From IMG/VR virus record IMGVR_UViG_3300036760_000392, positions 1-27,535 of that record: a stretch of DNA of 27,535 nt; one strand, given 5' to 3'. Below, piece after piece: positions 1-27,535 of the stretch. Position 1 is the first letter of the stretch, and each line of letters starts with the position of its first letter. This DNA is from a virus. The notes beneath the pieces are model-generated. The model searched no databases. It was not told the DNA's origin and saw only the letters and a program-made list of their open reading frames with translations. The translations under genes were made by a program, and so were the position numbers.

Positions 1-3000
1 ATTTCCATCTACGTCGAAGTTGATCAACGCAAAGTGAGATTGTAGCTTATCTTCATAGAAATTGTCATTTAGAACCTCACCATCGCTAACAGGCTCTGCG
101 GGCATAGCAGGAGTATCTGGCTGGTCACTTGTGGCGGTTTGCGCCTGTAGGTAAGTATATGTAATGCTAATAGAGTCTCGTCCAAGAACTGGTCGACCAA
201 ATGCCTGTTCGCTATCGATGCTGGGGCCGAGCAATACAAAGTTGGCGGGTAAACCGAAACCGTCGGCATCCCTATACAACTGAACTAACTGCTTGACTCC
301 ATCGTCTGTCTGAAGAATTGCTTCCGTGAGCGCGAACTGCGCCACAATAGAACCCTTACCCCCTCCGTTTATCAGGGCATTGGTATGGGGTTTAATGTTT
401 CCAGTTATACTTGGAAGAGGAAGCACACGGTTAGCTGTAATGTCAGGAATCTCAATCATAATAGCGCCGCAGTCATCAACCACGTACCAGTTAGATATTT
501 CTACATCGGACTTCTGGTATTGAACTACGTGATAGGCTGTAGCCGCAACGGTTCCAGCTACCTCGTCTTCCACCGCAACACCCGACAAGCTCTGTTCTGC
601 GAGTTCTGTATCTTTACTTACAAGATCGTCATCAGAGGGTTGATTTCCAATCCGGAGGTTTCTGTTCCTGAAGCGCCAACCCATGTATCCGTAAGCAAAC
701 TTAATAGCCTCATTTCCGACTGCCTGATGGGGTTCCGCAGTAATCTTCCCGCCTTTGGTAATATCTGAAGATACGATACCAAGTTTGCCCCCGCCGGCGC
801 CAGTACTGTTCATGGAGAAGTCTTTACCCTCGAACGAGCTCTGCATAGGAATGGAATGAAGGAAGCGATAGTCTACCAAAACAGAGTCCGAGAGGATTTC
901 AAACTCGTTGATTATGAGGAACACATAGATCTTATTGGAGTCGTTATGGATAAGGTCTACGGTCTGGAAGGATTGCCAGAATCCTCGTCCATCTACAGCA
1001 ACAGAGGCGTAGCCAAGAGGGGAGGTGGAATCATTCAAGCGTTGTTCATCTTCCAGTTGACTAAAGATATCCAGAAGAGTACTGGGGAGGACATCTCTGA
1101 AGGCGGGTGCGTCAGGCAAAGCAGTCGGTAAGTCCTGTACGAAGTTAGGGGTACCAAGAAAATCATTGTATCTATTTCTGTTTCTGAGTGCGGTATCGTT
1201 GATTATGACTACTTTGGTGTCAGGAGTGGCCGTTCCAAACATCGTGAGCTTGTTCTTATCTGCGCTCCAAGTGCGATAGATAAAGGGCTGGTTCCCCTTT
1301 TTAGGATGGGTAATGTTCAGGCGATTTATCGTAGGAACGCTGGATTGAAAAATATGATTAGGAAACTGAGGAGGCTGATCAAGATTCAACGCTTCTGATC
1401 CGGGCTCGGTTCTATACTCAGATTTGCTAATAGAGAACGTATCGAAATTATCTATAGAGACTTTGTTCATCTGAATCATCTCATAGTTATCTGCTGCCAG
1501 AGCACCGGGATTATCCTCGTCCGCAAGGAACAGAACTTTCGGCTTATAGAGAATCAAATCTTCGATGTCAGGCGTTCCAAAGACATCGACGTATTGATCA
1601 AAAGCCCAAATGAAAGGAGTTGAGAATCGGTTTTTGAACTGCGTTTCTGGATCTACATAACGATCCCAGTCATCAGATCTAAATCGGATTTCTTGTAAAG
1701 CTTCAGCCGTAATGTTCTTTCCAATATCTAACTTCTCATCCGTTGCGTATTGCCAAGCTTCGCCAGTATAGAAATCGCAATCTGTTCGGACACCGTTGCA
1801 GGGCAGGGTTCCATCTGAGGGGTTATTCCATTGCTCGGCGATATTATTATCTTCAAAGAAAAACTGGCATTTGCTAAACGAGCGAATTGCCGAATATTGC
1901 ATGTTCTTGGAGCAACGTCTCAAGTTGGCGGCGGACGTTGCTGCGTTCTGAGAAGCGGCCTGCCCGGTACCAGCATTGGATGCTACCTCAGCAAGGACGG
2001 CTATCTCCTCAAACTTTTCCCCAAGTTCTACAGATGCCGCTTCGGCATCATCGAACGTGTTAGAATTAACTATGATGCCGATGAGATCAAGAGCGTCCTC
2101 TCCGGCGGCCTGGGAATCCGCAGCGGCAGCGCAGGCTTTCTCTTGACGCTCCGTAACATCATCCAAACTTGCCTGGGTGCCGGTGATGCGTGCACCATCT
2201 GAGCTGTTAACGGCAGTCTGATAATAATCCTGCTGACGAGTAAGCTCCGCAGTAAGTTCATTACACACCGCACCGGTAGCATTTACGGTATCAACCAAAA
2301 CCTGAGAGCATTGAGTAGCTGCTTGTTTTACTCGGACCAGAGGAGCATTAGTGTCCCCCTCAGTACCAAAAATAACACCATCGCCAGGTTTTGGCAACCC
2401 AGTTCTGGGCTCCAAATAAAAAGAAGGTTGGCCCTCAAACCCCGCGACTACTGTTAGTCCGGTAGGGGCGAAAGAGCCAACCTCATCTGGGAAAGCTGGG
2501 TGTGTTATTAGGATGCCCGCTAGGAACATACTGTTGCCGTTCTCATCCTGAATTTCTTTGAAGTCGGGGCCGTCGATTATGGTGGCCAAGTAAAACTTGC
2601 TTGGAATTCCGTCTCCAAAGTTCCAGCGGCAGCACTTGGCGATCTGCGCCATGATGTTCTTGTAAATGATGTGCAGAGGAAGCTGATCACGCTGAGTAGC
2701 ATTGACAGCATTAGGAGGAAACGCTACCAAGTTGGGCGAGCGAATGTTTTCTTCCGTCAGTCCCTTTCCGAACTGCCGCAAAAATTCCAGCGGCGGAGAA
2801 TGACTAATCCCCAATCGCATTCCACCATACTTGTACTTAGAGCAAGGTAGGCACTGGCCGGAACCATTGCATTGACCTTCGTTGAAACAGGTAATATCAG
2901 ACCGCGCAAAAAAAGAATTAGCGATACATTGATTACTTGAGGAGTCTGGGTTCTCAGTTGCCACTTCTGGAGAAACACCCGTCCCCTTTAATGCAGCAAA

Positions 3001-3096
3001 GTCTTTCTGCACGTTAGTTCGAACATCTGATCTCCAAAAAGTGCAGGTAGGAACATTCTCTCCGTCAAAAGAAGAGCCCGATAAGAATTTAACCAT
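1..3096 (-). CDS. Large Cys-rich putative virion/tail protein, C-terminus beyond the window (at least 1032 aa)
   Basis: I read this frame codon by codon: there is no stop between the ATG at 3096 and the left edge, so at least 1032 codons are present and the C-terminus is missing. The ATG follows a strong SD (GAAGGAGGGG). Residues 18-85 are Cys-rich (C18, C57, C70, C76, C82, C85, the last three in a tight cluster), and C155/C156 form a pair, which suggests disulfides or a metal knot. Residues about 255-390 are Ala/Glu/Gln-rich and probably helical or coiled-coil. The remainder is mixed beta-rich sequence with many Asp-Gly and Asn turns, as in phage tail or fibre proteins. I recognise no named family. 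It is the last gene of the visible series, 27 nt after the 115-aa gene, so a receptor-binding or late tail role is inferred from context only. Confidence 0.85.
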   Translation of the reverse strand, partial: MVKFLSGSSFDGENVPTCTFWRSDVRTNVQKDFAALKGTGVSPEVATENPDSSSNQCIANSFFARSDITCFNEGQCNGSGQCLPCSKYKYGGMRLGISHSPPLEFLRQFGKGLTEENIRSPNLVAFPPNAVNATQRDQLPLHIIYKNIMAQIAKCCRWNFGDGIPSKFYLATIIDGPDFKEIQDENGNSMFLAGILITHPAFPDEVGSFAPTGLTVVAGFEGQPSFYLEPRTGLPKPGDGVIFGTEGDTNAPLVRVKQAATQCSQVLVDTVNATGAVCNELTAELTRQQDYYQTAVNSSDGARITGTQASLDDVTERQEKACAAAADSQAAGEDALDLIGIIVNSNTFDDAEAASVELGEKFEEIAVLAEVASNAGTGQAASQNAATSAANLRRCSKNMQYSAIRSFSKCQFFFEDNNIAEQWNNPSDGTLPCNGVRTDCDFYTGEAWQYATDEKLDIGKNITAEALQEIRFRSDDWDRYVDPETQFKNRFSTPFIWAFDQYVDVFGTPDIEDLILYKPKVLFLADEDNPGALAADNYEMIQMNKVSIDNFDTFSISKSEYRTEPGSEALNLDQPPQFPNHIFQSSVPTINRLNITHPKKGNQPFIYRTWSADKNKLTMFGTATPDTKVVIINDTALRNRNRYNDFLGTPNFVQDLPTALPDAPAFRDVLPSTLLDIFSQLEDEQRLNDSTSPLGYASVAVDGRGFWQSFQTVDLIHNDSNKIYVFLIINEFEILSDSVLVDYRFLHSIPMQSSFEGKDFSMNSTGAGGGKLGIVSSDITKGGKITAEPHQAVGNEAIKFAYGYMGWRFRNRNLRIGNQPSDDDLVSKDTELAEQSLSGVAVEDEVAGTVAATAYHVVQYQKSDVEISNWYVVDDCGAIMIEIPDITANRVLPLPSITGNIKPHTNALINGGGKGSIVAQFALTEAILQTDDGVKQLVQLYRDADGFGLPANFVLLGPSIDSEQAFGRPVLGRDSISITYTYLQAQTATSDQPDTPAMPAEPVSDGEVLNDNFYEDKLQSHFALINFDVDGN

Positions 3097-3123: not shown

Positions 3124-3471
3124 TTAGAATGGTTCTGTTTCGTAGGTCATTTTACCAGTAGCTTCTTCCACCCGCAAAAGTACTTTACACTTCTCCTCGA
3201 GATCGTAATATCCGATTACACGGGAGTGAATACCTTGGGAAGTCCCGAAGGAATTCACATCCACATAACCTTTCTTTGATGGTACGGTATAGTGCTCTTT
3301 GTTATCGAGGCTCCAAAAACGATCCTCCCACTTTAGGATCATCCTTTGAATGTTCTTCTTATTTGGAACCTTATTCCAGGGCATGTCGTCTTCGCAGATC
3401 GTGGAGCCATCGTGAAACTGGACGACCCAACCGCGAGGCATAATGATCTCACGTTCACCGATCCAGATCAT
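3124..3471 (-). CDS. Hypothetical 115-aa charged protein coupled to a homing endonuclease
   Basis: The ATG at 3471 overlaps the endonuclease stop (TAATG), and GGAG lies about 8 nt upstream inside the endonuclease gene, so translation is probably coupled. A second in-frame ATG at codon 11 is possible. The product is soluble, charged and Trp-rich (for example WNKVPNKKN, WEDRFW), with no signal peptide or membrane segment. It does not resemble the Ser/Thr/Gly-rich virion proteins around it. The C-terminal half alternates beta-like strands (YYDLEEKCKVLLRVEE). I do not recognise the family. Sitting directly behind a homing endonuclease, it may have moved with it, or it may be an ordinary phage accessory gene. 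Confidence 0.8.
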   Translation of the reverse strand: MIWIGEREIIMPRGWVVQFHDGSTICEDDMPWNKVPNKKNIQRMILKWEDRFWSLDNKEHYTVPSKKGYVDVNSFGTSQGIHSRVIGYYDLEEKCKVLLRVEEATGKMTYETEPF

Positions 3472-4253
3472 TAGGTTTCTCCTATTAACAACCTACCGGA
3501 AGCATCTATGAGTTCTAACTCAATAAGATCATCGCGATACAAAATAACCAAATTGTTTATTTGGCGTTTAATAGCCTCTATCTTTTGTTCGGCGGCAGCA
3601 TCACAAAACCCTTTGATTTCAACATAACATGGGATACTCTTGGCAAGTCCGGAAGGTAAAAAGAAATCAGGTACATAGGTTCTGTATATCCCCCCGTACA
3701 GGTATTTAATTCGGCGGGTTTCATACTCCCATTCTATACCCAATCTATCAAGATGTAGAGCAAAACCATACTCCCACCTGGATCGGAATTTACAATCCTT
3801 GTACTCCACTCTCTTTCCGTAAATGTTGTTATGAGACGAGGTGATGTCCTTAGAACCATCAAAAACTACATCCGACATTTTCTGACGAGTTTCGTCGGTG
3901 TGTCCTATTCCAAAAAGAGGATTTAACTTGCCAAGGCGAGCTTCAGATTTAGTCCTAAACTCTATTCCAAACTCAAGCATCTTTTTGATTACGGTGTTCT
4001 TATGAATGCCAAATACCTTACCAATCTTGGCTGGGTGCATCTCTTTATCCCAGTACATTTCTTTGAGTACGGTTTTATCTACCTGTGCGGTGATCCGATC
4101 ATTAGAGGGTCGCATCTTTATTCCGGCTCTGAATAAGCGTTGTTGAACCAAAGCCACGGAACACTCTAACTTTTCAGCAATCTCCCGGCCTATCAACCCA
4201 CTTTGATACAGCCTTACTATCTCGTCTGTACTTACATCTTTTCGTTGAACCAT
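3471..4253 (-). CDS. Free-standing PD-(D/E)XK homing endonuclease with HTH/NUMOD DNA-binding region
   Basis: The 260-aa protein has two helix-turn-helix-like segments near residues 8-45 and 60-97, then a NUMOD3-like motif at about 111-128 (NPLFGIGHTDETRQKMSD). The C-terminal nuclease core carries RSRWE (E161), VPDFFLP (D196) and VEIKG (E212, K214), the Glu...Asp...Glu-x-Lys pattern of PD-(D/E)XK nucleases. HTH and NUMOD parts joined to a nuclease domain are typical of homing endonucleases, which cut an allele lacking the gene and spread by repair. The ATG has GGAGG 9 nt upstream. Unlike the other endonuclease genes here it has its own sigma70-like promoter and a leader hairpin in the 123-nt upstream gap. 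Its stop overlaps the start of the 115-aa gene. The DNA target is unknown. Confidence 0.85.
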   Translation of the reverse strand: MVQRKDVSTDEIVRLYQSGLIGREIAEKLECSVALVQQRLFRAGIKMRPSNDRITAQVDKTVLKEMYWDKEMHPAKIGKVFGIHKNTVIKKMLEFGIEFRTKSEARLGKLNPLFGIGHTDETRQKMSDVVFDGSKDITSSHNNIYGKRVEYKDCKFRSRWEYGFALHLDRLGIEWEYETRRIKYLYGGIYRTYVPDFFLPSGLAKSIPCYVEIKGFCDAAAEQKIEAIKRQINNLVILYRDDLIELELIDASGRLLIGET

Positions 4254-6082: not shown

Positions 6083-6643
6083 TTAAACCTTCTGAAACAG
6101 CATGCCGTATTTGCCATCTGTTTCTATTAGCTTGAATCCTAGGGATAGCATGTACTCTGCTGCTCCTTCTGTATTTCCACCACTGTTGAGAAGATCGTGT
6201 TCGTGTGCTAGGTAGTATCCGTCTTTGTTTAGCAGCCGATTAAAAGTCTGAATGAGTTCTGATTTTACAGGCTCAACGTTGTGCTGAACTACTGCACGAG
6301 TAAAGATGAGATCGTACGTTTCGAGTTCTTCTATTCCGCGAAATGTTTTTCCTGGATTCTTCTCTCTTGCTATTTCCAACATCGCAGGGGTTCGATCAGC
6401 GCCGGTATAATCCAGACCCTCGAACAACCCTACGAACAGACCGATCCCACACCCGAAATCCAGAACTGATCTCACTGGCAGGGAAAGAAGGGTTTGGCGA
6501 AGCCAGGAGAGTTCTGCTGCGCCTGGGGAAGACACGCCGCAGTCTTGGATTACAGCTAGACCATCGAAGAGACAAGGTGTGAACTCGGAAAGAAGCTGGG
6601 GAACGTGAAGGTTCCAGTCAGATTCTCTATACTCGCTAATCAT
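6083..6643 (-). CDS. Class I SAM-dependent methyltransferase (186 aa)
   Basis: Motif I is clear at residues 60-68 (VLDFGCGIG), followed by the YTGAD strand with acidic D83 for the SAM ribose and a YDLIFTRAVVQHN motif IV-like region at 110-122. This is a Rossmann-fold methyltransferase with no obvious added target-recognition domain. The substrate cannot be read from sequence; it is small and lacks the NPPY/DPPY motif of DNA adenine or N4-cytosine enzymes, so a protein, small-molecule, glycan or lipid substrate is at least as likely. SD AAGGAG lies 7 nt before the ATG, 15 nt after the stop of the 877-aa fibre-like gene. Its place in a tail-fibre block suggests modification of a virion component or a host surface molecule, which is inference. 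Confidence 0.9.
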   Translation of the reverse strand: MISEYRESDWNLHVPQLLSEFTPCLFDGLAVIQDCGVSSPGAAELSWLRQTLLSLPVRSVLDFGCGIGLFVGLFEGLDYTGADRTPAMLEIAREKNPGKTFRGIEELETYDLIFTRAVVQHNVEPVKSELIQTFNRLLNKDGYYLAHEHDLLNSGGNTEGAAEYMLSLGFKLIETDGKYGMLFQKV

Positions 6644-12986: not shown

Positions 12987-14305
12987 TATAGCGCCTTACC
13001 TGTAATGTTGACCAGAAGATTTACGGGAGAAGCACTAGGAGTATACGTACTTGCGGCTATACCGGAGGTATTCGTAATCGCTATTACTGGACTTAACGTG
13101 CCAGGGGCACCAGGAGGACTTGAATCACTTAGAACAGCACCAAACTGAACACTTTGACCAAGAACAGGAAAACCGAATTGGTCTTTTACGTGCGCCTCGA
13201 CGTAGATTCTATCGTTGGAGGGAAAGGGCCTAACAAAGCGAGTATTCATGCTCAATCCTATAGAGTTTACTACAGGCGTGGTTACTTGGGTTTGGAAGTT
13301 ATACCGGGGGGCAGGTGTAAATGTAGTAGTAGTGAAAGCTCCCGTACCAACAGATTCCGTAGTCTCTCTATCCTGAAGTTTTAGAAGCACATTAGAATTA
13401 AAATCTGCGATAAGATCAAAAACTTCAATGAAGGTGAACATGTCGTCCTGTACGAGATTAGCTTCTAATGAAGACTGAAGATCGAACGTAGGATTGAAGA
13501 CGTTCAGCTGAATAATCTGAGAACCCCGTACCCAAGCTAAAGTACTTCCATCGTAGTCTGCGGCGGACACGTCATGGTATTTTCCTCCTGTATCTACCTT
13601 AAGCTGAAACTTTCCAGGGTAAGAAAACTGAACAAGAGTGCCTCTATTATCAACAAGTCCGGTGAAGGAGTGCTGATTAAAGATAAAGAGAGACTTCGAA
13701 TAGTCTACAGGATCATTTGAAACGTAGCTATTTTGAATAGGAGAATTTAGGGTTACCTGCCGTGTAGAAACGTTAACGAACACCGCACGTTTGGTCTCTT
13801 CGTTTCCAATGAAGCCACCGAAATCACTGGGGCCCAGATAGATATCATCGCCGATGTTTAGATGCTCTACGCTATCCAGTCGTATGATAGAAACACCTGC
13901 CAGAAAAGAACCATCCAAGAATCTATGATAATGCTCTACAGCAAAAGCGTCAGCTTCCCAACGAATATTAGGTCCATGGATTAGAGTTAGTTCGTCTTGC
14001 CAGCGAAATTCAAAAGGAATTGCGCTAGGTAAAAATCGAGTCTTAAAAGGAAACAATCTCCACTTCTTGATTACGATACCAAGATCGGACGGAAGGTCTT
14101 CTAAAGTCCAAAAAAAAGTCCCGTCATAATGAAGTTCCTTTACCGGATTGCGAAGCTGTGATAGGGAGATAGGAAAAGAATCAACGATAGTTCCGTCCGC
14201 TTCTACTTTAAGCATAGAGTTTAGATCTTTACTAACAGAATAGAAGAAACCCTCTTCAGGCCCTAATGAAAAATTTGGATCTTGTAGACTAACATTTACG
14301 GGCAT
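12986..14305 (-). CDS. Putative tail/fibre protein, paralog B of a 439-aa pair
   Basis: This protein and the one encoded at 16348-15029 both have 439 residues and align end to end: an N-terminal segment with FFYSVSKDLNSMLKVEADGT against YFYSFDHQTDTMIQKADDGT, HYDGTFFWTLEDL against EHDGESFWTLDRI, EADAFAVEHY against ESDAFTIERY, a Y/FLGPS loop, FIFNQHSFTGL against WFFNQNYLTTL, and a C-terminal Big_1-like domain (about 345-439). The ATG at 14305 lies inside the 3-prime end of the HNH gene (17-nt overlap), with AGAGGG as SD. The stop overlaps the next start. A beta-propeller-like middle is possible from the repeated strand pattern but unproven. The role is inferred to be a host-contact or baseplate-peripheral protein. 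Confidence 0.85.
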   Translation of the reverse strand: MPVNVSLQDPNFSLGPEEGFFYSVSKDLNSMLKVEADGTIVDSFPISLSQLRNPVKELHYDGTFFWTLEDLPSDLGIVIKKWRLFPFKTRFLPSAIPFEFRWQDELTLIHGPNIRWEADAFAVEHYHRFLDGSFLAGVSIIRLDSVEHLNIGDDIYLGPSDFGGFIGNEETKRAVFVNVSTRQVTLNSPIQNSYVSNDPVDYSKSLFIFNQHSFTGLVDNRGTLVQFSYPGKFQLKVDTGGKYHDVSAADYDGSTLAWVRGSQIIQLNVFNPTFDLQSSLEANLVQDDMFTFIEVFDLIADFNSNVLLKLQDRETTESVGTGAFTTTTFTPAPRYNFQTQVTTPVVNSIGLSMNTRFVRPFPSNDRIYVEAHVKDQFGFPVLGQSVQFGAVLSDSSPPGAPGTLSPVIAITNTSGIAASTYTPSASPVNLLVNITGKAL

Positions 14306-15026
14306 ATATCCCTCTCATTTTTATATCTGAAAGGTTCCTCTTATTTATGTTATCGGCTTTCCATAACGGCCTTAGATTTGTATAATGGCAAACTATTTTT
14401 ATTTGCTGTATATCTGTTAGGTCGAACGCTATCAAAGGCTTTATGTGGTCTATCTGCCATTCTCCATAGTTCTCCCAAGTCATTTCTGGTTGGAATAAAG
14501 ACTCCAAATACTTTTTCAAATCTTCAATAGAACATCCTAGATTTGTAACAGCGGATCCTACTTTAGAATCATTCCTAATAGCCTGGGACATTCTAGTACG
14601 AAGAGCGCATGATAGTTTGTATTGAATATCCCGTTCTTTACGGTTCTTGTCTCTTTTATTTCTCCGCTCTTTCGTAGATTGTAAGGCACTGTATTCGCGG
14701 TACTTGGTTAGTAACAGTTCTCTATTTATGTGTTTGTATTCTTTCTGATACTGCGCAATAACCTCTTTATTCTTATCATAGTAAAGTTTAGTTTTGGCTA
14801 AAATGTCTTCTTTATTTTCCTGGTAATAGGATTTTTTTTTCTCTAGTATAGAATCTCTATTGTTATGATACCTTTTTGTAGCTTGTTCTGCATACAAAGG
14901 TTTTTTGTCCTGGTATTGCCTTTTTCTACATGTTTTACACTGCGCTCGATGTCCGTCTTTACTGGTAGATTTCCGATCAAATTCAAATAATGCTTTCTCT
15001 AATTTACAAACAGAGCATCTTTTCAT
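14289..15026 (-). CDS. Free-standing HNH homing endonuclease, copy 2 (245 aa)
   Basis: The N-terminal treble-clef-like zinc site has C4, C7, C30 and C33. Residues about 38-112 are a basic helical linker built from an exact 15-residue period. The C-terminus holds the HNH core: WQIDHIKPL (D193, H194), HYTNLRPLW (N217) and DNINK (N226, K229), preceded by LGCSIEDLKKYL. It is clearly paralogous to the HNH at 18950-18333. It sits exactly between the two 439-aa paralogs: 2 nt after the stop of one, overlapping the other by 17 nt. There is no SD before its ATG, so it probably depends on re-initiation after the upstream gene. It is AT-rich (one 60-nt sample, 14701-14760, is 32% GC against 47% at 15301-15360), a sign of separate ancestry. 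Confidence 0.9.
   Translation of the reverse strand: MKRCSVCKLEKALFEFDRKSTSKDGHRAQCKTCRKRQYQDKKPLYAEQATKRYHNNRDSILEKKKSYYQENKEDILAKTKLYYDKNKEVIAQYQKEYKHINRELLLTKYREYSALQSTKERRNKRDKNRKERDIQYKLSCALRTRMSQAIRNDSKVGSAVTNLGCSIEDLKKYLESLFQPEMTWENYGEWQIDHIKPLIAFDLTDIQQIKIVCHYTNLRPLWKADNINKRNLSDIKMRGIYARKC
14691..14870 (-). repeat. Four 15-residue repeats in the HNH linker
   Basis: Asn recurs at residues 56, 71, 86 and 101, and Tyr at 67, 82, 97 and 112, giving an exact 15-residue period with basic residues between. This predicts a long helical DNA-contacting linker. The second HNH protein has a similar, less regular set. Confidence 0.6.
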
Positions 15027-17928: not shown

Positions 17929-18333
17929 TTAGATTTCGTAGTACCGCGTTCCTAGAACTATAACGCGGTTCCGGTTGAAATGATTAACACTTCCACTTAG
18001 CGTTGCGAAATCCTCGAATGTAACCGGGCAGGTTCCTGAGACCACAAAGCGTCTGCCCGCTTGAGGCACTGCTGTTGTAGCAGCGCCGGTATAAAAACTG
18101 CACGCATTATCTGCGCACACCCAACCCATTCCTCCGCCCAGAGAATAAGAATGGAGCTTACCCCCGGTCTCAGAATGGAAAACCTTTTGACCAGAAGGAA
18201 TGCGATTGTCCTGATTATAATCAGTACTTTGCGTAGAGTAGGCGCATTTCTTCCATCTATGTCCCGCCGTCATCTTACTACCAGAAATAACAGGACCAGG
18301 AGCAAAAATGTCACCCTGTGGAAGAATAACCAC
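17929..18333 (-). CDS. Small putative structural protein (134 aa), GTG start overlapping the HNH stop
   Basis: The start is a GTG overlapping the TAG of the HNH endonuclease (TAGTG), with only a weak GGCGGG-type SD, so coupling is likely. It has five Cys in the body (KKCAY, VCADNACSFY, GTCPVT) and a mixture of Gly, Ser and aromatic residues. It resembles other short baseplate-peripheral proteins in composition, but I recognise no family. The preceding HNH gene probably inserted directly at its start. Confidence 0.7.
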   Translation of the reverse strand: MVILPQGDIFAPGPVISGSKMTAGHRWKKCAYSTQSTDYNQDNRIPSGQKVFHSETGGKLHSYSLGGGMGWVCADNACSFYTGAATTAVPQAGRRFVVSGTCPVTFEDFATLSGSVNHFNRNRVIVLGTRYYEI

Positions 18334-18950
18334 TAGTAGCGCCCGCCTTTTGAAAGATTATCTCTCGCCCAAAGAGGTTGGAGATTAGTGTAATGAAAAG
18401 CAAGAGCTACTTGTGCGTCGGACGCGAGATCAAACGCAGAAAGCGGGACGATATGATCGATGTGCCACTTTCCGTGGTTTTCCCAGGACATGCCGCGGAG
18501 AAACTTGGCTTCTAGATAATCTTTGAGTTCTTTAACACTACATCCCAACACCTTTCTCCACTTGGTTTTTCTATAGTTATGAATTACAACCTCGTAAAAG
18601 CGAGCACGTAATACTTTTGATAAACGAAAAGATGGGTCTTTGTGATAGCGAGACATAACACGGTCGTTAATCTTCTGCTTATTTTCTGCAAAGTATTTCT
18701 TGCTTTGATCTTTTATCTTGTCAGGATTACTCAATCGATACTGTTTGGAGTATTCCTTAAGAGCATCTCTGTTTTCCTTATAGTATTCTTTACGTTGAAT
18801 ACTGACTTTTTCTCTATCTTTTTCCCAATCTCCTTTACGACAGGATTTACAAACTTCTCTATAACCGTCTTTTCTTCCCTTGTGTTTATGAAATTCCGTT
18901 AAGGGTTTAGATGACAAACATTTAGTACATTCCTTATCTGTCCTCTTCAT
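18333..18950 (-). CDS. Free-standing HNH homing endonuclease, copy 1 (205 aa)
   Basis: I chose the ATG at 18950 because GGAG lies 6 nt upstream; a GTG at 18962 would add four residues but has no SD. The N-terminus has a zinc site (C8, C11, C34, C37), then a basic helical linker with about 15-residue spacing of Tyr and Asn, then LGCSVKELKDYL and the HNH core WHIDHIVPL (H166), HYTNLQPLW (N189) and DNLSK (N198). It is a paralog of the 245-aa HNH at 15026-14289. It overlaps the 3-prime end of the 151-aa gene by 17 nt and the GTG of the 134-aa gene by 1 nt. It is AT-rich like the other mobile genes here. Confidence 0.9.
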   Translation of the reverse strand: MKRTDKECTKCLSSKPLTEFHKHKGRKDGYREVCKSCRKGDWEKDREKVSIQRKEYYKENRDALKEYSKQYRLSNPDKIKDQSKKYFAENKQKINDRVMSRYHKDPSFRLSKVLRARFYEVVIHNYRKTKWRKVLGCSVKELKDYLEAKFLRGMSWENHGKWHIDHIVPLSAFDLASDAQVALAFHYTNLQPLWARDNLSKGGRY

Positions 18951-19389
18951 ATTTTTCTCCACCGTCTACCTTACGGATTTCAGAATAGTACACAAGATGA
19001 AACGGGTGTTTTTTCTCCTCGTGATCCGCGCAGTCGATTAGGATCCAGTCGGAGTTTCGCAGCACCTCTAATGAATTAACGTGCTTGCCTTTTATAGTTG
19101 CGCCTTTCAAAAAAACCTTCTCCCCTTTGTATTCGACCCCTTTCCATTTCAGGGTTGCTTGGTAATACTCCGGGATAAAGATCCGGTGCTGCAGCGTCAT
19201 ATCCAGCGTTAGCTGATCGTTCGGATTGATTCTTGCCGTTTCCGCCAACACTGGTCCTACGAAATACGCACCATTTAGCTGCGCCACTTGCTTGTCGCCA
19301 TAGGACACATCGTCCCAACGGAGCTCCAATCGGTACTTATTCAAGATCCGGAATTCTTTCTTGGCCAGCTTTGCTTTCGGAACCTTCAT
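18934..19389 (-). CDS. Hypothetical 151-aa charged protein
   Basis: ATG with GAGG 4-5 nt upstream. The protein is Lys/Glu-rich, soluble and probably beta-rich, with no membrane segment or signal peptide; the end is strongly acidic (GGEKYEEDR). It differs in composition from the neighbouring virion proteins. Its 3-prime 17 nt are shared with the HNH start, so those last residues may be partly new sequence. I do not recognise a family. It may be a small baseplate or assembly factor, or a gene that travels with the endonuclease. Confidence 0.8.
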   Translation of the reverse strand: MKVPKAKLAKKEFRILNKYRLELRWDDVSYGDKQVAQLNGAYFVGPVLAETARINPNDQLTLDMTLQHRIFIPEYYQATLKWKGVEYKGEKVFLKGATIKGKHVNSLEVLRNSDWILIDCADHEEKKHPFHLVYYSEIRKVDGGEKYEEDR

Positions 19390-19405: not shown

Positions 19406-20089
19406 TTAGAAGAAGATCAATTGATGGGGTATGGACGCTGAGGCATTTCCTCGCTTACCATCTTCTTTACCTACGCCCCCACCTACTTGGGTCACCTTAC
19501 CGAATGTCTGGGTATCATCTTGCCCCAGTCCTGGAGACCCCGCACTAACACTGAGGCTTCTTCCTTGGGCATCAAAAGAGGTAGAAACCACTGAGCCGGT
19601 AAGCACGATACCGTCATTGCTGACGATGTCCGCGCCCTCGAGCCTATTACCCTCAGAGAATCCTTGTACGAAGGAGATGTTACCCGTATAACCAGGAATC
19701 TGAGGCTTACCCTGAAGGCTCCAGCTTTCCTGACCAAACCCCTGGAAATCCTTGGAGTAGGAGAAGCTGGTGATAAAGAGAGCCTCCGTACCCGTACGAC
19801 TAATAGGAGTAGTGGATCCCGCACAGGGGGCGGGGGTAATCACAACATCCATCCTTGCGGTAGAATCATCGCAGGAGGTGGATGGCTCTAGGGCAACCGT
19901 TGTTGAAGCGCCGCCGTAATTTGTGAGGCTTACGCTCTCCTGGTTCTGGAGCTGAATATCGAAAGCATCAAAACTTCCCAACTGGAAAAGACGCTCTACG
20001 CTGGGGGATAAACTGAAGCTTACAGACACAAATCCACCAGAGATGATGTTAGATGTGACGGTAGTTCCCGCACCGACGATTACTGTTAT
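19406..20089 (-). CDS. Putative baseplate/tail protein, probable ATA start (about 227 aa)
   Basis: The frame is open from an in-frame TGA at 20116-20114 to 19406, but between that stop and the GTG at 20029 it has no ATG, GTG or TTG. A very strong SD (GGGAGGAGG, 20106-20098) lies 8 nt before an ATA at 20089-20087. Translation from there gives an extra 20 residues opening with TVIVGAGTTVTSNI, which reads like a virion-protein N-terminus. I therefore extend the gene to 20089; a caller using only standard starts would give 20029 (207 aa). The product is Ser/Gly/Gln-rich and beta-type, with a FITSFSYSKDFQGFGQESW stretch and a Gly-rich C-terminus. It belongs to the hub-like block. Confidence 0.75.
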   Translation of the reverse strand: MTVIVGAGTTVTSNIISGGFVSVSFSLSPSVERLFQLGSFDAFDIQLQNQESVSLTNYGGASTTVALEPSTSCDDSTARMDVVITPAPCAGSTTPISRTGTEALFITSFSYSKDFQGFGQESWSLQGKPQIPGYTGNISFVQGFSEGNRLEGADIVSNDGIVLTGSVVSTSFDAQGRSLSVSAGSPGLGQDDTQTFGKVTQVGGGVGKEDGKRGNASASIPHQLIFF

Positions 20090-20106
20090 GGTAGTGTCCT
20101 CCTCCC
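20087..20106 (-). promoter_or_regulatory. Strong SD facing an ATA codon
   Basis: GGGAGGAGG (20106-20098), then 8 nt, then ATA (20089-20087) on the minus strand. No ATG/GTG/TTG in this frame exists between the upstream TGA and 20029. This decides the start proposed for the tail gene here. Confidence 0.55.
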
Positions 20107-20128
20107 GATCTTCTCAAGGAAAGATCGG
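20105..20128 (-). promoter_or_regulatory. Hairpin abutting the SD of the ATA-start gene
   Basis: Perfect 8-bp inverted repeat CCGATCTT-TCCTTGAG-AAGATCGG (minus strand). It ends directly at GAGGAGG, with no U-tract, so it is not a terminator. It lies between the 72-aa gene stop (20137) and the SD. The layout copies that of the PD-(D/E)XK gene leader. Confidence 0.6.
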
Positions 20129-20136
20129 CAAATACG

Positions 20137-20355
20137 TTATGTCTTGTTTTCCGCCGCCGGAATTTTTGGATTGCCGCAGATGGAGCATTTATTATCCGAA
20201 TCAGACGCGGTAAGCGCATCACAAGTAGCGCAGGTGCTACCGATAAGCTCCAACTGCCGAGCGCGCTGTTCCTTACTCAAATAAGCATAGCGCTCATAGT
20301 AAGCAGCTTCTTTGTTCTTATTCGCTCTATTGTTGGCGCGGCCGCAACAAGGCAT
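20137..20355 (-). CDS. Small zinc-ribbon-like protein (72 aa)
   Basis: Starts at ATG with AAGGAGG 7 nt upstream, the SD overlapping the stop of the 99-aa gene. The N-terminus is MPCCGR; the C-terminal half has CATC and CSIC pairs about 15 residues apart, a probable four-Cys zinc ribbon. The middle is a basic, Tyr/Arg/Glu-rich helix (YYERYAYLSKEQRARQLE). There is no recognised family name. In the middle of a baseplate-like cluster it may be a small structural metal-binding part or an assembly factor; a regulatory zinc-binding role is also possible. Confidence 0.75.
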   Translation of the reverse strand: MPCCGRANNRANKNKEAAYYERYAYLSKEQRARQLELIGSTCATCDALTASDSDNKCSICGNPKIPAAENKT

Positions 20356-20367
20356 GTCGTTTCCTCC

Positions 20368-20667
20368 TTAGGTCAAGGGTGCGCGCGTAGCGCCCCTAGG
20401 GCAATCTGTAGCACACCCCACGGCCGTCATCACAAATTTATGCTCATACACGACTGGAATGGACGCCGGGATTATGTTCGAATCCAATTGCGTCACCCAA
20501 CCCTTGAAATCCACCCCTCCAAAAGTAAGCTCGGTAAATACGCGAGGAGGATTGATACCTGGGACTGGCTCCGTTGATACGACCGTCATACTAACGGTAG
20601 CCAACCCGTTTTGAGCATAGGAGATTTGGATCGATGAGCAGTCGATAAATTCCCAGCTTTCACTCAT
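20368..20667 (-). CDS. Small hub-like beta-barrel protein (99 aa)
   Basis: The ATG overlaps the GIY-YIG stop by 4 nt (ATGA). The sequence reads as one small beta-barrel: IQISYAQNGLATVSMTV, FTELTFGGVDFKGWVTQLD and VYEHKFVMTAVGC. The barrel pattern, with an F-x-G-x-V turn, is like the first domain of the 309-aa hub-like protein (IFTGRVLSV). It contains three Cys. I infer a small baseplate/hub component; the alternative is an unrelated tail protein with the same simple fold. Confidence 0.75.
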   Translation of the reverse strand: MSESWEFIDCSSIQISYAQNGLATVSMTVVSTEPVPGINPPRVFTELTFGGVDFKGWVTQLDSNIIPASIPVVYEHKFVMTAVGCATDCPRGATRAPLT

Positions 20668-21593
20668 TTACGCAGCCCCCCCCCTCTTTTAGCATCCACC
20701 GCCCTTCTACAACGACGGCACTGTCTGGCACCGGCAGGTGTTATGTAGGTGTCTGCTTCTGTCCCAGACAGAGGGTGGTTATTTACACACAACTCTTTCC
20801 TGTGTTTTGATTTGCGTCCGCGTAGACTTTCGGAAATCCTCTCCCGGTGTTCTTGAGAAAATACTCTTCCTTGTAAAGCGATACGTAACTTCTCGCGGAA
20901 TTCTTCTGACCTTATTTTCCCCACATTATGATGGGGAAGCCCCGACTCGGCACGCTGTTGATTGCTTATTAGCAAACCAGCGCTAATTTTCTTTTTAGTT
21001 TCTTCCGACTGGACTTTTCCTTTATTCTTTCCAATCATAGACTGTCGCATCTTCTGGACAGTTTCTGGAGATCTCTCTTTCCCTATTAAAGCCTCTCGCT
21101 GTTTTTGACGAGTTTCCTCGGAAGGAGATTTACCGTAATTTGGATTATTATCTGCCAATTTACTTTGGCGTATCTTTTCTTTGCTCTCCACACTGTGTTT
21201 CCTGCCCAGCTGAGCTTGCCGCATACTTTCTCGCCAATCTTCATCAAAACCTCTGGTCCTATTTTTTGCGGAAGCTGACATCTTGTTACGAGTTTCTTCG
21301 CATGGAACCCCGCCCATATCCCCACCCGCCTTCAAATTATAGCCAGTAGGGGACAGGGTGTTAAGTTCCGAAATCCAATACTTCTCCTTCTCATTAGATT
21401 CTTCTTGATTATCTAAAGTCTCAATAATGACCATCTCAAAGTTATCGGATCCGTATTTCTCAATAGCTCTGCGTAAATATAAGCAGTTAGAAGATTTGGA
21501 TAAATGCAGGCTCCATCTTCTGTCCAGATCCAGGGTCTGCCCCACATACATCTTCCCGTTGATTAGATTTTCAACTACATAGATGAAGAACAT
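20664..21593 (-). CDS. Free-standing GIY-YIG homing endonuclease, copy 1 (309 aa)
   Basis: GIY-YIG nuclease domain at residues 1-91: FIYVVENLINGKMYVGQT (Y5, Y16), R26, E70 and N86 (GYNLKAGG), which align without gaps to the second copy at 23260-22619. Residues 92-270 carry about seven NUMOD3-like repeats (GRKHS-x-E...KIR type), the usual modular DNA-binding tail, and the C-terminus ends with a small zinc knuckle (CVNNHPLSG...RQCRRCRR). The gene is tied to its neighbours by TAATG at its start and ATGA at its stop, so it probably inserted at a junction between two tail genes. Only weak SD (GGGG) is seen. The target is unknown. Confidence 0.9.
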   Translation of the reverse strand: MFFIYVVENLINGKMYVGQTLDLDRRWSLHLSKSSNCLYLRRAIEKYGSDNFEMVIIETLDNQEESNEKEKYWISELNTLSPTGYNLKAGGDMGGVPCEETRNKMSASAKNRTRGFDEDWRESMRQAQLGRKHSVESKEKIRQSKLADNNPNYGKSPSEETRQKQREALIGKERSPETVQKMRQSMIGKNKGKVQSEETKKKISAGLLISNQQRAESGLPHHNVGKIRSEEFREKLRIALQGRVFSQEHRERISESLRGRKSKHRKELCVNNHPLSGTEADTYITPAGARQCRRCRRAVDAKRGGGLRK

Positions 21594-22618: not shown

Positions 22619-23260
22619 CTATGGGGACTGCTGGGACTTCTTTATGTTTTCCCAGCGGATACGCTGGGCTTCCCGCATCTTTGTCTTAGTTTCTTCAGAG
22701 TGTCTTTTGCCAAACATTGGATTTTTCTCACCTATTTGATTCCCCATGTGAGACTTAGACAATTGGATCCTTGTCGCGGTAGAATGCTTTCTGCCTAAAA
22801 AGGTCTTCTGGGTTTTACGTCTAATCAAATCGTCAGGGGACAAATTTATCTTCTTGCCCGTCTTAGATGCACTTATCCTATCCTTACTTTCGTCAGAATG
22901 ATTTCTTCCATAAAAGCTGTTTCTTTCTCCCAACTTAGACAGCCTTTTCTTCTCTCTGGTTTCTAAAGAATCAGGTCCTCCCCCTAATCCTCCCTCTTTT
23001 AGATTGTAACCATTCGGGGATAAGGTAGTTAAGGTACTAATCCAATAGACCTCTTGCGTGTTAGCTTCCTCTAAATTTTCACATCGCTGTATAAGGGAAA
23101 AATCAAAACTTTTGCGCCCGTACTTTCTAATGGCACGATGTAGATGAGGGCAATCTAATCCAGCCTTCTTATGCTTTTTCCATCTAAATTCCGGATACAT
23201 AGTTTGACCAACATAAGCTTTTCCGTTAATCAAGTTTTCAACTATGTAAATGAAATACAC
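22619..23260 (-). CDS. Free-standing GIY-YIG homing endonuclease, copy 2 (213 aa)
   Basis: GTG start with AAGGAG 6 nt upstream (in a 24-nt gap after the hub-like gene). The GIY-YIG domain (1-91) is FIYIVENLINGKAYVGQT with Y5, Y16, R26, E70 and N86; it matches copy 1 position for position. NUMOD3-like repeats follow (GRNHSDESKDRISAS, GRKHSTATRIQLSKS, GKRHSEETKTKMREA). It is shorter than copy 1 and has no zinc knuckle. A 49-nt gap separates its stop from the 213-aa tail gene. The two copies probably descend from one recent duplication or from independent invasions by the same family. Confidence 0.9.
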   Translation of the reverse strand: MYFIYIVENLINGKAYVGQTMYPEFRWKKHKKAGLDCPHLHRAIRKYGRKSFDFSLIQRCENLEEANTQEVYWISTLTTLSPNGYNLKEGGLGGGPDSLETREKKRLSKLGERNSFYGRNHSDESKDRISASKTGKKINLSPDDLIRRKTQKTFLGRKHSTATRIQLSKSHMGNQIGEKNPMFGKRHSEETKTKMREAQRIRWENIKKSQQSP

Positions 23261-26513: not shown

Positions 26514-27535
26514 CTAGAGTGCCAAGTTAAGCGCCCGCTGGGCCTGGCTGAGAGCACTTTCGGTCTTGCCATGAACTCTCTGAATATACGTAGCATTGTC
26601 CGTAACCTTGGTTTCCAGCTTGAATAGCGAGTTGCTGAGGTCGCGATCTGCGGTCTCGGAAAGTTGTCTGTTGCTGGTGATAGAAGTGGAAAGCGCGGTT
26701 AGAGAATCCTTCAGGTCCGTAACCGCCGCGGTCGCAGCAATAGCCTTATCTTGCGCACCGGTGACTCGGGTATTGATGTCGGCGATAGTAGCTTCGAAAC
26801 CTTTCACCAAGGTTACAGCCTTGTCGTTGGAAGTTACCACTTCGTCCACCAAGAGCTTGATATCCCCGTTAGAATCTGTTACGTCGTTGATTAGCTTTGC
26901 ATTCGCATCCACAGTGCTCTTAAGGGCAGTAGTGCCGTCGGTATTGGTTTTCACCTGCGCGATAAGAGTAGTGACGCCGTCTTCTAGTAAGGCAACCTGT
27001 GTTCCTAGGGCAGACAGCGGAGCAAGAGCCTTAACCTGCGAAAACAAATCGCCAACACTGTCCTCGATGGCAATGAGGGCGTTTCCGGCAATATCCAGGT
27101 TAGCGGTAAGGGACTCAGTAGCCGCAGTGATTCTATCTTCAACCGAAGGTCCGCTTGGATCAATAATACTTTCCAGAACTTCAAGACGCAACCTGGCGTC
27201 AGCAACTTGCGAACCAACAGAACCAAGACCAGAGCTTTTAAATGCGCCAGAGAGAGCGGCCTCCAACCCATCGACACCTACCACAGGAATGTTATCAACG
27301 GAAACAGAAAGAGTTCCACCCAAGAGTTCAGCAAGAGTAGCACCACTATCGGTGATGGCCGTAACGATTTCCTGGGAGCTCTGATCTGGGGTGTTGGCTA
27401 GAGCATTGATAGCCTCGATAAGAGTAGCAAATTGCTCGGATAGAGAAGTAAGGGCTTCGGTCTGTCCCTCGGCACCTGGGGTCGTTTTGCCTGTGGCGAT
27501 GTCGTCTACCTGGGAACCAGGGGTTCTTCCATTCT
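26514..27535 (-). CDS. Ala-rich coiled-coil protein, N-terminus beyond the window (possible tape measure C-terminus)
   Basis: The frame is open from the right edge (27535) to TAG at 26514, giving 339 residues; a TTG at 27323 is not needed as a start. The sequence is nearly all helical: Ala/Leu/Ser/Thr/Asp-rich with long heptad-like runs (for example IAATAAVTDLKDSLTALS) and very few aromatics. Such C-terminal parts occur in tape measure proteins, and the following genes look like hub/baseplate genes, as expected directly after a tape measure gene. Without the N-terminus, a tail-length or coiled-coil fibre role cannot be separated. Confidence 0.75.
   Translation of the reverse strand, partial: NGRTPGSQVDDIATGKTTPGAEGQTEALTSLSEQFATLIEAINALANTPDQSSQEIVTAITDSGATLAELLGGTLSVSVDNIPVVGVDGLEAALSGAFKSSGLGSVGSQVADARLRLEVLESIIDPSGPSVEDRITAATESLTANLDIAGNALIAIEDSVGDLFSQVKALAPLSALGTQVALLEDGVTTLIAQVKTNTDGTTALKSTVDANAKLINDVTDSNGDIKLLVDEVVTSNDKAVTLVKGFEATIADINTRVTGAQDKAIAATAAVTDLKDSLTALSTSITSNRQLSETADRDLSNSLFKLETKVTDNATYIQRVHGKTESALSQAQRALNLAL

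Follow-up and report, generated by a model that had tools for sequence, protein, structure and literature searches.

The window, i.e. the whole stretch of 27,535 nt analysed here (IMG/VR record IMGVR_UViG_3300036760_000392), includes part of the structural region of a phage genome, in which a minus-strand gene of 227 codons (19406–20089) encodes a virion or tail-region protein of unknown fold. Its proposed initiation codon is ATA (20087–20089). An extended Shine–Dalgarno (SD) sequence, GGGAGGAGG (20098–20106), lies upstream across an 8-nt spacer, ACACTACC (20097–20090, minus strand). The frame remains open from ATA back to a TGA (20116–20114), a stretch of eight codons, none of them canonical, and no ATG, GTG or TTG occurs from that TGA down to a GTG at codon 21 (20027–20029). 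This layout agrees in every element with that given by an earlier reading of the sequence alone (hereafter the sequence-only reading). The next gene upstream (20137–20355, minus strand; 72 aa, MPCCGR...) is syntenic in relatives and abuts the target gene in those that lack the endonuclease described below.

Several analyses bear on the strength of this SD. Examination of 2868 ATA, ATT and ATC codons on the two strands of the window gave 20 whose duplex with the anti-SD, at suitable spacing, is at least as stable as −11.9 kcal/mol. Two of the 20 begin a frame open for at least 60 codons (the cut-off used), and only the one at 20089 is without an upstream canonical start in frame; its SD is thus not explained by chance. 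The duplex is −12.1 kcal/mol both here and in the one relative with an ATT start, compared with −9.1 to −11.9 kcal/mol in six ATG genes, so that the window SD ties for best among eight orthologues. The start codon is predicted to be unpaired with values of 0.98 and 0.81 in the two non-AUG leaders, against 0.03–0.43 in the six ATG leaders computed. By contrast, openness of the SD shows no single direction between the two kinds of leader, and the SD region in the window is predicted to be partly paired (0.36 unpaired). No claim is made for a hairpin 5′ of the SD, which has a z-score of −1.28 and is matched by 17 of 200 shuffles.

Viral contigs yielded homologues, as did one genome contig (L011, WJJK01000099.1), which carries the same cluster of phage genes and, although binned as a Candidatus Altiarchaeales MAG, is probably of phage origin and binned in error. 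The INPHARED database yielded no match for the target protein or for its 757-aa neighbour. The sequence-only reading had proposed comparing the start codon in related phages, and the ATA column reads ATG in 11 homologous records and ATT in one. The ATG records comprise seven close ones (six distinct, as L007 and L010, from one metagenome, look near-identical) and four distant ones. Close homologues are 63–86% identical over residues 1–227, starting at the ATA codon; the distant ones, which were reached through a neighbouring gene, are 32–37% identical to the window protein and have ATG in the column behind an SD-like stretch. The ATT copy lies on IMGVR_3300032177_000019 (one contig, handled as L003, L008, L012 and L123), with GGAGGNNACTACC before the codon, as in the window, and ACA after it. 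Its next canonical in-frame codon is a TTG at codon 34, inside invariant sequence. A scan of viral contigs for the motif gave three matches, of which a stricter pattern kept only that on this contig (L123); the other two (L121 and L122) arose by chance within a single long frame that belongs to a different, presumably capsid-like, gene.

Codons 2–20 are unchanged or mostly synonymous relative to all seven close relatives compared. Between the window and L008, six are identical, 11 synonymous and two non-synonymous; the corresponding counts against L004 (the same contig as L002) are three, 12 and four. This pattern shows purifying selection on codons 2–20. The start column is conserved and old. 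It also bears out the earlier proposal that the 20-residue extension is coding. A rather unlikely alternative is that the gene is truncated, with translation from GTG 20029 and the preceding 20 codons a decaying leftover. That GTG comes first among the canonical starts of the frame, could give a shorter protein and has GGTGG just 5′ of it. However, its anti-SD duplex is weak (−6.2 kcal/mol, against −12.1 kcal/mol at ATA), the same codon reads GTT in L002 and L003 and is not conserved as a start, the codons it would discard are those with mostly synonymous changes, and the ATT relative has no start at all before codon 34. Both records thus have a non-AUG codon in a conserved start column, with no canonical alternative before codon 21 in the window or codon 34 in L003, and in the window it stands behind an extended SD at suitable spacing, as in known AUA/AUU-initiated genes. 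The target gene therefore probably starts at AUA 20089, as the sequence-only reading had proposed. Structure prediction with AlphaFold reached a mean pLDDT of 27.7; the model was discarded and has no bearing on whether residues 1–20 are needed.

In L003, an intact 221-aa open reading frame (ORF) (2351–3016) separates the ATT codon from the syntenic gene upstream. It matches PF01844 (HNH; 24.6 bits, cut-off 21.4) and PF07460 (NUMOD3; 36.4 bits, cut-off 20.4) in Pfam and appears to be a free-standing HNH homing endonuclease, for which cleavage and homing activity would be expected from its family. Its stop ends 13 nt beyond the ATT codon, giving a 16-nt overlap with the target gene, and the SD of the target gene sits within its 3′ end. 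The genes that flank it are adjacent or nearly so in L002/L004 and in the other ATG copies inspected. The endonuclease gene begins TAGGTAATGCCTGTT; the start in L005, which is empty, reads much the same (TAAGTAATGCCTGTG), a likeness that may be due to chance.

The window retains a remnant of the same gene. The 47-nt spacer between the upstream stop and ATA (20090–20136, minus strand), which carries the SD, is colinear, to the last base, with the 45 nt of the HNH gene that immediately precede ATT (L003 2956–3000; identity 32/45, one 1-nt gap). Neither 2000 dinucleotide shuffles nor 2382 other window segments reached this alignment score. The remnant translates as FLEKIGRRTLP, compared with LLEKVERRVLP in L003, and its frame ends in a TAA (20088–20086) that overlaps ATA and shares one frame with the stop of the upstream gene. 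Every homologue found without the HNH gene or its tail has ATG in the start column.

Phylogenetic analysis places the ATT copy (L008) as sister to an ATG copy (L009; support 100/99), while the window groups with L004 and other ATG copies (fork support 89/93, drawn open). Since each thus groups with ATG copies, the two non-AUG starts, known from two records only, appear to lie in different lineages and to track the endonuclease and not one clade, a distribution that either movement of the endonuclease by homing or its loss from the other copies might produce. The same result weighs against ATG as the true codon, whether ATA arose as an error in sequencing or assembly or as a sporadic point mutation in a decaying copy. 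ATA is one base (20087) from ATG, yet ATT occupies this column, with the same SD and tail context, in a lineage that is not its sister, and the remainder of the target ORF is intact and conserved, which makes this alternative improbable. The sequence-only reading had also suggested that a G-to-A change lost an ATG. ATG is probably ancestral in this column, but such a change is at best part of the story, as the loss came together with the endonuclease 3′ end and its SD. Amino acids of the first 20 codons looked suggestive of co-conversion; nucleotide identity did not bear this out past codon 4.

Taken together, these observations suggest, with a probability of about three in four, that a homing-endonuclease insertion displaced the ATG and SD of the target gene, which now starts at AUA with an endonuclease-derived SD. 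The ancestral gene would have had ATG and its own SD directly after the upstream gene. A free-standing HNH endonuclease, still intact in L003, would then have inserted at this start and displaced both signals, and its last codons (...ERRVLP..., AGGAGGNNACTACCATN) would have supplied a strong new SD to the displaced gene, which would begin at AUU in L003 and at AUA in the window. In the window, deletion would later have removed nearly the whole endonuclease gene but spared the SD-bearing tail, in keeping with dependence of the downstream gene on that tail; insertion followed by deletion is the probable order of events, and the tail was probably retained by selection. Initiator fMet-tRNA, positioned by the extended SD, would initiate at AUA with reduced efficiency and a lower yield. 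It is plausible from reporter data (PMC13009471) that the AUA start holds expression low, as the sequence-only reading had suggested.

Two other translational or splicing routes fare worse. An endonuclease borne by a group I or II intron, whose splicing restores ATG, was rejected, because no intron RNA around the endonuclease matched Rfam at the gathering score in the window, L008, L004, L009 or L011. Coupling or recoding from upstream translation (i.e. termination–reinitiation, frameshift or bypass) in place of independent SD-driven initiation is very unlikely: the HNH frame overlaps the target gene by 16 nt in L003, the upstream stop and the TAA over ATA share a frame in the window, and T4 gene 60 has an HNH endonuclease beside a translational bypass (PMC3014915). 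The window, however, no longer has the endonuclease, 47 nt separate the upstream stop from ATA, and no ORF spans the start barring readthrough. Coupling may help in L003 without being common to both, and the Rfam result again gives no intron. A bypass of the gene 60 type would resume coding beyond a gap in a single protein; here the upstream and downstream genes are separate in the relatives compared.

We also considered how unusual such a start is. Orthologues of the 18 non-endonuclease genes of the window in seven related records have 106 starts, i.e. 92 ATG, 12 GTG, one TTG and one without a canonical start, the last being the ATT copy in L003. Two side observations concern other window genes: relatives remain similar for about 70 codons upstream of gene 26514–27323 (minus strand), towards the window edge, and its listed TTG start is probably too short; and ORF 6083–6643 (minus strand), methyltransferase-like by eye, has no match in the fetched orthologous regions. 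A survey of HNH loci (54 examined, from 80 kept out of 127) included 37 with a downstream ORF. In 36 of these 37 pairs, no more than 23 nt separate the stop of the endonuclease from a canonical start, and the exception (83 nt) is the present locus. HNH family endonucleases thus often end on the start of the next gene but usually leave a usable one, and a non-AUG start is not the usual outcome of such insertions.

Five endonuclease-like genes lie at gene junctions in the window between 3124 and 23260 on the minus strand (i.e. 22619–23260, 20664–21593, 18333–18962, 14289–15026 and 3471–4253), of which 3471–4253 is conserved in three relatives (52–62%). At junction B, the GIY-YIG gene 20664–21593 opens in a TAATG overlap, at the very position where the next gene opens in L002 and L003, and the downstream gene now begins at an ATG inside the last codons of the endonuclease. 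A run of nine G lies just 5′ of this ATG (20667) in the gene end (20664–20690, minus strand); it may serve the next gene as its SD region and might be liable to slippage. The endonuclease-like gene at junction C (14289–15026) opens 2 nt past the upstream stop, the position at which the next gene opens in L110. At junction D, the gene 17929–18333 (minus strand) behind endonuclease 18333–18962 has GTG where L002 and other relatives have ATG, and on this sequence comparison the start has been downgraded at a second endonuclease junction. The endonuclease at junction E sits 5′ of the native SD and leaves the ATG as it was.

Two further possible causes of the AUA start found no support. A phage-encoded IF3 (PF00707) was rejected, with no match in seven records and a control match in 10 of 14 genomes; the PF03420 profile matched nowhere, controls included. 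The related 296–298 kb phages L100–L105 have about 30 tRNA genes, among them several with anticodon CAT and, in L103 (17834–17910), one with anticodon TAT that reads AUA; these tRNAs of relatives explain nothing about the AUA start here.

AUA or AUU initiation behind an extended SD is established in host genes, e.g. infC and pcnB of E. coli. According to PMC13009471, S. aureus infC, ccpN and cvfC1 are initiated in this way, and in S. aureus reporters natural AUA/AUU starts with an extended SD reach ∼10% of AUG, a figure that rises to as much as 30% when ccpN is assayed in rich medium. The S. aureus and E. coli genes resemble the present one in the AUA/AUU codon, the unusually strong SD, good spacing and conserved coding from that codon, but they are host genes in which the non-AUG codon is conserved within the lineage, whereas here a phage gene has ATG relatives and an endonuclease-linked change. 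Free-standing T4 endonucleases (seg and mob), as described in PMC2988022, displaced promoters of downstream genes and carry substitutes in their own coding regions, which favours their retention; the displaced control signal and its internal substitute are alike, but promoters are involved there, while SD and start codon are involved here and the window keeps only the signal-bearing tail. T4 mobA and gene 60 share with our locus an HNH endonuclease adjoining a gene that needs non-standard translation (PMC3014915), yet theirs is an elongation bypass within a split gene and ours non-AUG initiation at a gene start. The literature searched, with subscription papers mostly outside it, reports neither a phage gene with an AUA or AUU start nor a homing endonuclease that supplies a start site. 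The tie between the two appears to be new, within that literature, and the explanation of the AUA start as a homing-endonuclease scar is probably a variant of known things and not a new initiation principle.

A broader and much more tentative idea is start-site capture, in which free-standing homing endonucleases of these large phages would settle on the resident ATG and SD of a structural gene and bring a replacement module (a strong SD plus AUG, GUG or AUU/AUA) in their 3′ codons. The downstream gene would become addicted to the tail and, after decay of the endonuclease, the module would be domesticated, with AUA as a selected, low-output and IF3-sensitive setting.

In brief, the comparison shows a route by which a gene may lose its ATG and yet survive on AUA or AUU, with a selfish gene providing the compensating SD, i.e. 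an initiation-level counterpart to the embedded promoters of T4 endonucleases. Gene callers restricted to ATG, GTG and TTG would either miss such genes or place their starts wrongly. The three versions of this gene (ATG, ATT and ATA) form a natural series for gauging how far an extended SD can rescue a near-cognate start.
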